The notes beneath the pieces are model-generated. The model had not been told where the DNA came from and made no database searches. It saw only the letters and a list, made by a program, of their open reading frames with translations. The position numbers and the translations under genes were made by a program. Source: Polycladomyces zharkentensis (lineage in GTDB: Bacteria > Bacillota > Bacilli > Thermoactinomycetales > JIR-001). Taken from it: a stretch of 64,000 nucleotides of DNA. Every line of letters starts with the position of its first letter. The stretch's first letter is position 1. Below, piece after piece: positions 468 to 20,624 of this stretch. Location of the stretch: NCBI RefSeq assembly GCF_016938855.1, contig NZ_JAFHAP010000008.1, positions 310,280 to 374,279 on the forward strand, written 5' to 3'.

Positions 468-498
468 TCAACATCGACCTCTTTCCCGGCTTATCTCA

Positions 499-690
499 GT
501 GACTTGCTCCGCACGGCTAAAGTACCGGAGGCACTCCCTTCGGTCGCCGTGGGCTTCTCGCTTCATCCGGCATGGCAACCCACATCCATCCGCGAAGGCT
601 TCGTCCAATCTTGGAAAAGGGTCGGTTCTGATTGTCCGTATTTCTGCCCAGGAACGTATCCCAATCGGAGGATTTCTGCGGCATTGACCT
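499..690 (-). ncRNA. omega-RNA-like right end of IS200/IS605 remnant A
   Basis: The last ~190 bases of copy A cover the tnpB stop region and the right end. They are better conserved against copy B than the coding part is, and contain the GAAGCCCACGGC ... GCCGTGCGGAGCAAGTCAC arrangement, in which a hairpin is followed by the cleavage end. This is the layout of TnpB guide RNAs (omega RNA, earlier described as HEARO-type RNA). The sequence after GTCAC (TGAGATAAGCCGGGAAAGAG) would be the guide. Whether it is transcribed is not known. Confidence 0.45.
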
Positions 691-1008
691 CTCTGCCTGC
701 CACATATCCGCATGGGCAACGATAGATACGTTTTTTTCATGTCTCCTTTACGCTCTGACCACATTTGGAGCATGCCTGTGACGTGTTGTGAGGATCGACC
801 GTGATCACCTGCTTGTCGGTTGTCTTGTAAGCCGTGAATTGAACCGGCATCCTCCAACCGGCATCAGCCCGTGGATTGTGATTCTTCATCAGCATGGATC
901 AGAAGGGAATTGAAACAATGTCAGACTTGTGAGAGAGGAAGCCTTCCCGCGTCCGACGCTCGCTTCTCATCCCAACCCTAAAGGGCTGGGTTTTCCCGCT
1001 CGCTCTAT
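499..1008 (-). mobile_element. IS200/IS605-type deletion derivative, copy A
   Basis: This 510-bp segment and the one at 18561-19086 share their left end (GCGAGCGGGAAAACCCAGCC), an internal stretch of a TnpB gene and their right end (GGAGCAAGTCAC). The TnpB part is the C-terminal zinc-finger region, readable only with frameshifts: FTAYK, then VDPHNTSQACSKCGQSVKET, a stop, and CPCGYVAGREVNAAEIL. No tnpA and no full tnpB remain. The left end follows TTTAT directly, which is a plausible target/TAM motif. The left end lies in the 3' end of the DUF5680 gene and the right end just before the broken EamA gene. Confidence 0.75.
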
Positions 1009-1475
1009 ATAAAACCACCCTGATATCGCAATTCATACACTTTTGTATCTTTCAGGCGGATTTCCTCATATCCATGAAAGCGATCCAGTGTTCCCTCCCA
1101 TTGGTTCAGATAGATAAGCGACCCATTTTTCCAGATGTCCGGCCCCCGATAAGGCGCCTCCTCCGATCCCAAGCGCAATGCTTCTCGCAAGAATGCATAG
1201 ATGGAACGAATCTGTTCCCGATCGCTGATGTTGAGCACTCCTCCCCCATAGCTCATAGCCCATACGGGTTGGTCCAAATGATATACCGTTTCCATCCCTG
1301 TAAACCTCTCCATACCGAAATAGATATCCCGGTAGAAATAAGCACCATCACGATATTCCAATTGTTTGGATCCTTGTAACTGTGGTGGGACGGTAGCATC
1401 GTCTCCTTGGGAAGCATATGTGGATCGTTTGGCTGTTAGGAGGAAAGAAATGAGTCTGCGGTGCATATGGATCAT
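1005..1475 (-). CDS. DUF5680 domain protein, 3' end altered by IS insertion
   Basis: The 156-residue product resembles the DUF5680 family: an N-terminal helix (LISFLLTAKRSTYASQGDD), the core YRDIYFGMERFTGMETVYH and a C-terminal YELRYQGGFI. Function is unknown; the fold is a small globular cytoplasmic domain. The stop codon TAG lies at 1005-1007, inside the left end of IS remnant A, so the last residue(s) of the protein are set by the insertion. Because the family ends near this point, the product may still be active. The start ATG has no strong Shine-Dalgarno sequence, and the internal ATG three codons later is an alternative. Confidence 0.6.
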   Translation of the reverse strand: MIHMHRRLISFLLTAKRSTYASQGDDATVPPQLQGSKQLEYRDGAYFYRDIYFGMERFTGMETVYHLDQPVWAMSYGGGVLNISDREQIRSIYAFLREALRLGSEEAPYRGPDIWKNGSLIYLNQWEGTLDRFHGYEEIRLKDTKVYELRYQGGFI

Positions 1476-17405: not shown

Positions 17406-18323
17406 TCAAGTTGACAAAGAGAACCCTTTGATGACGGGAGAACGCAACGTTCCATCCGGCGTCCAGGACAGGAACCGTACTTGCACGGTCAACAACGGCT
17501 GCAACCAAACGACGGTATCCGTTGACGGAAAACGCGGTGCGACGGCAATCGGCGGTTTGGATATGCGCAATTGTGGAAGAAATTGCGTCAGTACGGTAAG
17601 TTCCTTTTGATTCAATCCGGTAGCCGCTTTCCCGATATACCGTTCGGGCGCGACGGCGGGTTCCCCCAATATCAGCGCGTTTGCACGTCCTTGCCGTAAA
17701 GTGGCTCCGATCACTGCCGCCCGCATCTCGTGAAAATGTTTTACCTTCAGCCATGTGGGATGTTTCTTCCCCACATGATACATACCCTCACGTTCCTTGA
17801 TGACGATCCCTTCCATTTCTTTCTCCTTTACGGTCTCAAACAGGGCCGTACCGTCTTCATAATTGTCGCAGACATGGATTCGCTTCAATCCGGGAGGAAT
17901 CAGCCGGGACAGCCGTTCGTAACGTTCAAACAGGGGACGGTCCGTCCACCAGCGTCCGTCGGCGAACAACAAATCAAACACCATATAATACACCGGAATG
18001 TGAACCATCAACCGTGATTGGTTGGCCGGAGATCCCAAGTCCCGTTTCAACACCCGAAAAAAATCGGGACGTCCGCCTTCGAGCGCCACCACTTCTCCGT
18101 CGAGCAGCACGCTCTCACATTCCAGCAACGACAACTCCGTCAGCAGATCGGGATATGTGTGCGTTCGCTCGTTTTGCTTGCGGTTGTACAGCCACCACCC
18201 GGATTCGTCTTTGCAGGCCAGCAGACGAACACCGTCCCATTTGACTTGGTACCAGTACCTGTCGCTTTCGGGAATCGACTCTTGCGGGATCGGCTCCATC
18301 GGTTGAATTGCGGGCATTCTCAT
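17406..18323 (-). CDS. ATP-dependent DNA ligase (NHEJ type)
   Basis: The 305-residue enzyme seals nicks using ATP. The adenylation motif KxDG is YQVKWDGVRLL, the next motifs are LLDGEVVAL and YMVFDLLFADGRWW, then MEGIVIKERE and TWLKVKHF. The OB-fold domain follows and ends VRFLSWTPDGTLRSPVIKGF, typical for LigD/LigC ligases. The ATG at 18323 is preceded by GGAGGGAG. Together with the polymerase and Ku genes close by, it makes a split version of LigD. It may repair double-strand breaks in germinating spores, as in B. subtilis (family knowledge). Confidence 0.93.
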   Translation of the reverse strand: MRMPAIQPMEPIPQESIPESDRYWYQVKWDGVRLLACKDESGWWLYNRKQNERTHTYPDLLTELSLLECESVLLDGEVVALEGGRPDFFRVLKRDLGSPANQSRLMVHIPVYYMVFDLLFADGRWWTDRPLFERYERLSRLIPPGLKRIHVCDNYEDGTALFETVKEKEMEGIVIKEREGMYHVGKKHPTWLKVKHFHEMRAAVIGATLRQGRANALILGEPAVAPERYIGKAATGLNQKELTVLTQFLPQLRISKPPIAVAPRFPSTDTVVWLQPLLTVQVRFLSWTPDGTLRSPVIKGFSLST

Positions 18324-18560
18324 TTTGCGTCTCCCTCCACGGTTTAGTCTGCCCCAATCCCAATGAAAAGCCCAACCCAATCTCAATCCGGAAAGCGCAG
18401 AATGTGATCGTCGGCAATATCCGCTGCCTTGCCCGCATCTTCTCCCCCCGGCTCCGAGCAGTCTTCAGCCCCGGGTCCCGGCAGGACAGAGCGAAGAGTA
18501 AGCCGGAAAAGGATGCGATGACACGCCCTGCCGAGACATATCACCAAAACGCCGGTTTAT

Positions 18561-19086
18561 AAACAGCGAGCGGGAAAACCCAGCCCTCTCGCAAGTCCGA
18601 CAATTTCCCGTATTTCTCAAGGACCATTTTCATTCCTTTGGATTGCCTTTGAAGACTTAAACATTCGGGCGATGGTAAAAAATCACCATCTTGCCAAGAG
18701 CATTGCAGACGCTGGTAGGAGGATGTTGGTTCAATTCACGGCTTACAAGGCAGAGTGGGCCGGTAAGCTAGTGATGGAAGTGGATCCTCGCCACACGTCG
18801 CAAGTTTGCTCGGAGTGCGGTCGGATCGTAAAGAAGACCTTAAAAGAACGTACATTGTTGCTCATGCGGATATGTGGCAGACAGAGATATCAATGCGCAA
18901 GAAATATCCTGCATCGAGCGATGGGAACCGTTCCTGAACCGAAATACGGACAATGAGAATGAAACCTTTTCCAGGCTTGGACGAAGCCTTCGTGGATGGA
19001 TGTGGGTTGCCACGCCAGATGAAGCGAGAAGCCCACGGCGACCGAAGGGAGTGCCTTAGGTGCTTCAGCCGTGTGGAGCAAGTCAC
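18561..19086 (+). mobile_element. IS200/IS605-type deletion derivative, copy B
   Basis: This 526-bp segment matches copy A (499-1008) at both ends and in the TnpB remnant. Readable TnpB pieces are SIADAGRRMLVQFTAYK, VDPRHTSQVCSECGRIVKK (first zinc-finger Cys pair) and, after a frameshift near 18855, SCGYVADRDINAQEIS. The N-terminal ~75% of tnpB and any tnpA are gone. The left end again follows TTTAT (18556-18560). The 237 bases before it (18324-18560) show no gene. Confidence 0.75.
18890..19086 (+). ncRNA. omega-RNA-like right end of IS200/IS605 remnant B
   Basis: It is the counterpart of the right end of copy A, about 85-90% identical over the last ~135 bases by eye. It has the GAAGCCCACGGC, GCTTCAGCCGTG and GGAGCAAGTCAC blocks in the same order. 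The following sequence (GAGTCGCTCTTTTTCCACCA), inside the DUF962 gene, would be its guide. Expression is unknown. Confidence 0.45.
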
Positions 19087-19370
19087 GAGTCGCTCTTTTT
19101 CCACCACTGCGCCCACTTTCTCGCCAACCAGTACGGTCCGATCAGCAAAAAACGGGGATTGCTGAAAAACGAAGGCTTTTTTCCTTCAAATGCATGACCG
19201 ACAAATTGTAAAATCCATCCCGCCACAAACAGGATAAGGGCGGTTTTCCATTGAAAAAGCACCAGCGGAATCGAGATGACGATCATCGGGATGCCGAACG
19301 CATGCGTCAGTTGGTTGATCGGATGTTGGTGATCCTGTTTGTATTTCTCCAATAATTCAGATAAACGCAT
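19083..19370 (-). CDS. Mpo1/DUF962 family membrane protein
   Basis: The 95-residue product begins MRLSELLEKYKQDHQHPINQ, with the conserved H-x2-N, followed by two membrane segments and HAFEGKKPSFFSNPRFLLIG, the signature of the YGL010w/Mpo1 (DUF962) family. The yeast member is a dioxygenase of fatty-acid alpha-oxidation; the bacterial role is not established. The stop codon (19083-19085) is part of the right end of IS remnant B, so the C-terminus ...WWKKSDS was set by the insertion. Confidence 0.8.
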   Translation of the reverse strand: MRLSELLEKYKQDHQHPINQLTHAFGIPMIVISIPLVLFQWKTALILFVAGWILQFVGHAFEGKKPSFFSNPRFLLIGPYWLARKWAQWWKKSDS

Positions 19371-19480
19371 ACACCAAACACCTCCCGTATTTCTTTTTCG
19401 CTTCGTTCCGACAACTCCCCTTCTGAATGTCCCGGTTGTCCCATATAGATAAAAAAAGCGGATTTCAAATGGAGGCGGCC

Positions 19481-19810
19481 ATGAAACCGGGAATGAAACA
19501 AATCTTGATGCAGTCTGTCATTTTCACCGCATTGGCGGTCAACGTGATGTTGGGTGCCCTTCTTTGGGCGAGGGGGCAAGTGTCTCTGCCGGCCACTGCG
19601 CCCACCGCCGCCGTACCCGTCTTGCCGGGTGAACGGGTGGAGGTGCGGGATCGGTTTGAAGGAGTCGAACGACACGGTGACTGGTGGATTGAAACGTATG
19701 AGAAAGTGGAGTATCGCTACGATCGTTACGGTCGGTTGTTGGAGGCCCTTCCCACTGGAGAAAAAACCTATTTGCGATACTGGGGCAATCAAAAGCGGCC
19801 GAAACCGTGA
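19481..19810 (+). CDS. short membrane-anchored protein, unknown
   Basis: The 109-residue product has an N-terminal membrane segment (LMQSVIFTALAVNVMLGALLW) and a polar outside part rich in Tyr and Arg (WWIETYEKVEYRYDRYGRLL). GGAGG lies just before the ATG at 19481; ATGs at 19469 and 19493 are alternatives. It converges on the Ku gene. I do not recognise it. Confidence 0.5.
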   Translation: MKPGMKQILMQSVIFTALAVNVMLGALLWARGQVSLPATAPTAAVPVLPGERVEVRDRFEGVERHGDWWIETYEKVEYRYDRYGRLLEALPTGEKTYLRYWGNQKRPKP

Positions 19811-19814
19811 GCAC

Positions 19815-20609
19815 TTATTCCGTTCCGGCCGCCTTCTTTCTTTTTTGGGCCGCTTCGATGCTCGCCTTGAGCGCTTCCATCAGATCGACCACTTTTTCCG
19901 GTTCGGCTTCCGGCGCCTGCACAATTTCTTCGCCGCTGATTTTCTTTTCAATCGCTGCTTGCAACGCTTCGCGGTAATCGTCCCGATATTTTCCGGGATC
20001 AAACGATGTGGACAAGCTTTCGATCAGCTGGCGCGCCATTTCCATTTCTTTTTCCGGCAATGCCGTCTCTTCCGGAACCCCCGGCACCAATGCCGCAGAA
20101 CGCACTTCATCAGGGTAGAAGATCGTTTCCATCACCAGACAGTTTTGATACACCCTGACCACTGCCAGGCTTTGCTTGGAACGAATCGTGATCTGCGCCA
20201 CGCCGATTTTCCCCGTCTCCTCCATCGCTTCCCTGAGCAGGGTGTACGCCCGTTCACCGGTATCTCCCGGACCCAAATAATAGGTGCGGTCAAAGTAGAT
20301 CGGATCGATTTCCCGCAAATCCACAAAGTCGAGAATTTCGATTGTTTTGCGGTTTTCCGGTGCGATCGCCTCCAATTCCTCTTTTTCCATCAATACGAAT
20401 TTCCCGTCCGCGTATTCCACACCTTTCACGACATCGGCCCACGACACTTCCTCCTGGCAATAAGGGCAGGTGCGCGTATATTGCAACGGCGTCCGGCACT
20501 TCTTGTGCAACAGGCGAAACGGCACTTTTTTCCCTTCGGTGGCCGCATACATTTTGACCGGAATATTGACCAAACCGAAACTGATCGCACCTTTCCATAT
20601 GGTATGCAT
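19815..20609 (-). CDS. ku: Ku DNA-end-binding protein
   Basis: The 264-residue homodimeric Ku protein encircles DNA ends and recruits the ligase and polymerase in non-homologous end joining. It has the opening MHTIWKGAISFGLVNIPVKM, the YTRTCPYCQEEVSWADVVKG block, and PIYFDRTYYLGPGDTGERAY. The C-terminal tail is Lys/Ala-rich and probably contacts the ligase. The start at 20609 follows a GGAGGG site. The partner genes are at 15675 and 17406. Confidence 0.95.
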   Translation of the reverse strand: MHTIWKGAISFGLVNIPVKMYAATEGKKVPFRLLHKKCRTPLQYTRTCPYCQEEVSWADVVKGVEYADGKFVLMEKEELEAIAPENRKTIEILDFVDLREIDPIYFDRTYYLGPGDTGERAYTLLREAMEETGKIGVAQITIRSKQSLAVVRVYQNCLVMETIFYPDEVRSAALVPGVPEETALPEKEMEMARQLIESLSTSFDPGKYRDDYREALQAAIEKKISGEEIVQAPEAEPEKVVDLMEALKASIEAAQKRKKAAGTE

Positions 20610-20624
20610 GGCGTATCCCTCCAT

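Follow-up and report, generated by a model that had tools for sequence, protein, structure and literature searches.

The window (the whole 64,000-nucleotide stretch analysed, C8:310280-374279) belongs to a draft genome of 3.3 Mb in 22 contigs. It contains two short insertions, here called A and B, which carry the only right ends of their type found within it. Neither carries tnpA or an open tnpB. Their ends, their lengths (510 and 526 bp) and the TTTAT preceding both left ends are exactly as given in the initial annotation of this DNA, which had regarded them as miniature IS200/IS605 derivatives. The features are listed below, with element positions counted on a complete 1544-bp copy found elsewhere in the genome.

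499-1008, minus strand: copy A, 510 bp, an internal-deletion remnant of the 1544-bp tnpB element keeping element positions 1-91 and 1184-1544
1009-1013, minus strand: TTTAT, the target or TAM-like pentamer adjoining the left end of A
971-990, minus strand: left-end subterminal palindrome of A, CCCAGCCCTTTAGGGTTGGG, intact
614-940, minus strand: tnpB 3' remnant of A, a pseudogene with TGA stops that matches TnpB residues 253-371
499-612, minus strand: right end of A, putative omega-RNA (reRNA) scaffold with two of the five helix 1 pairs broken
483-498, minus strand: guide-position sequence of A, TGAGATAAGCCGGGAA, which directly follows TTTAT where the insert is absent
18556-18560, plus strand: TTTAT, the target or TAM-like pentamer adjoining the left end of B
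18561-19086, plus strand: copy B, 526 bp, an internal-deletion remnant keeping element positions 1-27, 70-127 and 1121-1544
18561-18587, plus strand: left end of B, its palindrome deprived of the right arm by a deletion between two CAGCCCT repeats
18630-18971, plus strand: tnpB 3' remnant of B, a pseudogene with TGA stops that matches TnpB residues 257-371
18973-19086, plus strand: right end of B, putative omega-RNA scaffold, the top-scoring copy of the genome (139 bits), with a fully paired core
19087-19102, plus strand: guide-position sequence of B, GAGTCGCTCTTTTTCC, which directly follows TTTAT where the insert is absent

Copy A is flanked by a DUF5680 gene and an EamA gene, both co-directional with it, and the TAG stop of the DUF5680 gene is supplied by the first bases of A (window 1005-1013). 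An Mpo1-like gene converges on copy B, which is inserted at the stop codon of this gene and supplies a TGA from its right end (19083-19086). In a sister species, the stop of the Mpo1-like gene is a TAA that forms part of the TTTAT site. Both insertions are found at gene stop codons and replace the stop, A with a TAG and B with a TGA. B also lies inside a small cluster (window 17406-20624) that includes a LigD-like ATP-dependent DNA ligase (17406-18386) and Ku (19815-20624), which identifies it as a non-homologous end-joining locus.

The genome contains one complete element, a 1544-bp, tnpB-only copy on contig C2 that encodes an intact TnpB of 371 amino acids. A Y1 (HUH) TnpA is missing from A, B and this element, and A and B are therefore filed as derivatives rather than autonomous members of the IS200/IS605 family. 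Several traits of such derivatives are present. The copies are inserted on the 3' side of a short, fixed target that is not duplicated, and in place of terminal inverted repeats they have a subterminal palindrome at either end, of which the left one is intact in A and broken in B. The tnpB gene of the family is likewise represented, as remnants in A and B and as an intact TnpB in the complete copy. The proposed IS200/IS605 derivation and non-autonomous structure are supported. The two copies had also been said to share both ends, which holds for the right end and the start of the left end but not for the left palindrome of B, which has lost one arm. As claimed, the right ends are better kept than the coding part: A and B are 91% identical in their final 114 bp and 79% identical in the tnpB remnant.

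Nucleotide searches of the genome returned dozens of partial copies with E values from 1e-100 to 1e-25, and the similarity among copies is not due to chance. A covariance model of the right end gave 110 matches at E<=0.001, the weakest of which may come from related element families; 78 were aligned in detail. The initial figure of two copies falls far short of these numbers, and the search it recommended for further copies with the same ends yielded 44 that retain both. Conservation begins sharply at TT(T/G)AT followed by AAAGAGCGAGCGGG (46 left ends aligned) and stops as sharply at CAAGTCAC, that is, at TCAC (64 right ends aligned); A and B both close with CAAGTCAC. The 25-30 bases beyond the element ends hold almost no information in either alignment. 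This boundary agrees with the role of TTTAT as a target or TAM-like motif that had been proposed. Among the 44 copies with both ends, the target is TTTAT in 20 and TTGAT in 7. Insertion points are depleted in open frames (20/44, compared with 527/680 random flank points).

Empty sites in relatives had been named beforehand as the comparison that could overturn the proposed ends. They were reconstructed from the copies and then searched in two congeners. For A, both congeners carry TTTAT followed by TGAGATAAGC or close variants, with no insert. For B, both carry (T)TTAT, then GAGTC or GAACC, then the conserved right flank, and the left side of this site rests on 4-6 bases because the left flank has diverged. 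TTTAT is thus joined to the right flank in two congeners, and the shared segments do not extend past the ends. Several further copies likewise have precise empty sites in these congeners, where the right flank comes straight after TTTAT and the target is not duplicated. The ends are therefore true insertion boundaries, and each right end is followed by the sequence that stood next to TTTAT before insertion. The empty sites already refute the idea that A and B reflect chance similarity or a host structural or regulatory repeat unrelated to transposition, to which we give practically no credence. The many short copies, located preferentially outside open frames, would suit it, but the tnpB remnants inside, the exact boundaries and the complete tnpB copy with the same ends do not. 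An older shared insertion at the site of one further copy (L049), suspected from an alignment gap, was ruled out on reading the alignment.

The breakpoints of A and B are private, and those of five other remnants, compared with the complete element, differ again. The two copies thus arose by separate deletions, and their near-equal length is coincidental. The initial view of them as a miniature subfamily is not upheld; the real minis have a different interior. The homogeneous non-autonomous form of the family is a class of at least 28 elements of about 236-312 bp, not A and B. This class accounts for 28 of the 44 copies with both ends, and its members align to one 293-bp consensus. Their interior is absent from the complete element and unrelated to tnpB, for example, in L053:594-893 (G000 C6:74968-75267; interior TTTGGGTACAATCGAGTCGAGAAGTGCGAAAACACTG...). 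Conservation among the minis is highest in the scaffold core and in a portion of the left end, and the left end is structured in the mini alignment (-54.0 versus -29.3±4.6 kcal/mol for shuffled columns). The left end (e.g., window 918-1008) contains another long hairpin in addition to the subterminal palindrome. This second hairpin reads GTCGGACGCGGGAGGG...CCCTCTCGCAAGTCCGAC in the consensus and is among the best-conserved parts of the minis.

Mobilization in trans, which had been suggested for both copies, is doubtful, given that no intact Y1 TnpA was found in the genome and that B has lost its left-end hairpin. Only three fragments of Y1 TnpA genes were detected in this assembly. It is a draft of 22 contigs, some of which (C8, C17) break off within a TnpB copy, so that a full tnpA copy could be missing from it. 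The recommended search for a full copy succeeded for tnpB (the 1544-bp element on C2) and gave no copy with intact tnpA. Another genus (G018) has intact tnpA-tnpB pairs whose TnpB is 72% identical, and intact Y1 genes are also present in one congener. With no intact TnpA found, A and B are probably immobile today, and the family looks stranded. Membership of A and B in an actively moving miniature (MITE/PATE) subfamily, mobilized in trans by a TnpA, is very unlikely in our judgment. Such a subfamily would account for the non-autonomous structure, the intact left-end palindrome of A, the lack of both insertions in both sister species and the large mini class of the same genome. It is contradicted by the private breakpoints, by the lack of like-structured sister copies of A or B among those compared, by the broken left-end palindrome of B and by the failure to find an intact Y1 TnpA.

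The TnpB of the C2 element can be aligned with ISDra2 TnpB along its length, has the catalytic D, E and D at the corresponding positions, and matches the NCBIfam family guided_TnpB. Its dN/dS between genomes is 0.08-0.19, which indicates purifying selection. The best named matches to the TnpB of the window come from Thermoactinomycetaceae, e.g., Marinithermofilum abyssi. Three congeners carry one copy each of an intact close TnpB, at different loci. Vertical fixation of a single intact TnpB at one locus was considered and rejected, as the flanks differ in the three congeners.

The initial annotation had described the right ends as guide-RNA-like, and comparative evidence supports this description. 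Of 41 TnpB loci from across Bacillota (Thermoactinomycetaceae, Paenibacillus, Alicyclobacillus, Lentibacillus, Sulfobacillus and others), 35 have a match to a covariance model built from the copies of this genome, located directly after the stop codon of tnpB. The cross-species alignment has 22 of 34 pairs changed on both sides and 203 double-changed paired cells, compared with 68±7 after shuffling. Sliding the pairing partners, a control applied to the TnpB-locus alignment, destroys the covariation signal. This alignment was fitted to the model and leans towards structure; both controls nonetheless lie far off. Helix 1 is 98% paired in the TnpB-linked rows, and two of its pairs are broken in A. 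The right end is thus a TnpB-linked structured RNA, and the family as a whole carries such a scaffold at the tnpB 3' end and right end, with its core intact in B and damaged in A. No Rfam family matches it. Within the genome, the energy alone (-50.6 versus -46.8±3.8 for shuffled columns) is not significant, so the RNA claim rests on cross-species covariation. RNAalifold returned no structure for all 42 right ends with the 93-bp and 114-bp forms mixed, whereas it found structure once the forms were separated. Two scaffold forms coexist, one of about 90-93 bp and one of 114 bp with an extra hairpin of about 21-24 nt (L045:2053-2142 compared with most others). Both occur with tnpB in Marinithermofilum abyssi.

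The copies of this genome give a contrasting picture. Among 25 of them, one double change was observed against 2.2±1.3 expected, a test of low power at such similarity. Paired cells amount to 91.2% in the copies of this genome and to 91.5% after shuffling, which gives no sign of RNA maintenance. The orphan scaffolds of this genome look neutrally decaying on these counts. A fully paired core is present in 20 of 78 copies, B included, and orphan guide RNA function is possible for some of them. The proposal that A and B may still make orphan omega RNAs is accordingly divided: it is possible for B, whose core is paired, and weak for A, with two core pairs broken, while the copies as a group show no RNA maintenance. 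A search allowing up to two mismatches found no guide targets of A or B in their own genome; in the two congeners the targets are too diverged for such a search to detect. In the mini interior, TTTGGGTACAAT looked plausible by eye as a promoter, but a consensus scan of one mini found none.

It is conceivable, although improbable, that A and B act as functional genes for orphan omega RNAs. Transcription would start at neighboring promoters, the RNAs would load in trans into the intact TnpB, and cutting of empty sites would keep the inserts fixed. B has the best-scoring scaffold, and its core is fully paired; A comes immediately after a gene of the same orientation and supplies the stop of that gene, so that read-through could yield A RNA. 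An intact, conserved TnpB exists, and with no guide targets in the own genome no self-cutting would be expected. This reading is at odds with the two broken helix 1 pairs of A, the neutral pairing of this genome's copies as a group and the promoter scan of one mini, which made no call. A more general and still rather doubtful conjecture is a one-to-many system, in which dozens of orphan omega RNAs would load a single maintained TnpB in trans and each would guard the site of its own insertion. If so, even transposase-less leftovers would be protected from loss.

We hold with considerable confidence that A and B are PATE-like IS200/IS605 relics that were placed 3' of TTTAT, underwent independent internal deletion and are now probably immobile. 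Each would have been placed there as a longer element by single-strand peel-and-paste without target duplication. The family suggests a Y1 TnpA as the inserting enzyme, and the insertion product itself is seen in the empty sites. The middles of both copies were then lost at the observed breakpoints, with one deletion in B joining two short repeats. What remains is the left-end hairpin DNA, the right-end DNA doubling as the omega-RNA scaffold of TnpB, and a flank in guide position that corresponds to the old empty site. Were B, or a further copy whose core is intact, to be transcribed, the one intact TnpB could take up the RNA and be directed to cut the empty site of that copy.

Palindrome-associated transposable elements (PATEs) of Haloquadratum walsbyi are IS605-type derivatives that arose by repeat-mediated core deletion. 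Their ends are IS605-like with palindromes close to the termini, they lack terminal inverted repeats and do not duplicate the target, and they are too short for a transposase (PMC3119063). A and B resemble them in the lack of terminal inverted repeats and target duplication, in being too short for a transposase, in boundaries common with the parent and in their origin from an IS605-type element through core deletion mediated by repeats. Palindromes near both termini are present in A, and the left palindrome of B is destroyed. The 236-312 bp minis resemble the "homogeneous" PATE kind. In contrast to PATEs, the family of A and B is bacterial (Bacillota) rather than haloarchaeal, its right end is a covarying TnpB-linked RNA scaffold, and A and B are single deletion products, B without one palindrome. 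A and B are thus a further example of the already known PATE-type IS200/IS605 derivatives.

ISDra2, also of the IS200/IS605 family, inserts 3' of the pentamer TTGAT, which is also its TAM; its reRNA is expressed and TnpB-bound and spans the tnpB 3' end, the right end and about 16 nt of flank that serve as the guide (PMC8612924). The pentamer target (here TTTAT or TTGAT), the lack of duplication and the TnpB catalytic residues are common to both, and the layout of right end plus flank fits the ISDra2 reRNA. Unlike ISDra2, the parent here is tnpB-only, with no intact tnpA. Orphan omega RNAs of IscB reportedly exist in Ktedonobacter beside a single nuclease gene, and PATEs are said to occur beside TnpB elements in Geobacillus stearothermophilus. 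As in those cases, one nuclease gene accompanies many guide-bearing ends that have none; unlike them, the evidence here is confined to sequence, and the scaffolds show neutral decay.

One genome thus displays a late stage of a TnpB-element family, in which a single intact nuclease gene of the family, conserved by selection, is left among about 80-110 guide-scaffold ends. TnpB-linked and orphan scaffolds are comparable by the same model, which makes functional retention of orphan omega RNAs testable, and the answer from these alignments leans to neutral decay here. Moreover, intact and broken scaffolds with known empty sites form a natural panel for biochemical tests.

A second intact TnpB (L087:2166-3588, G000 C21) is only 41% identical, yet it has a left end of the same type, which indicates that different TnpB lineages have one left end in common. 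Partial traces of the mini interior occur in other families of the order.
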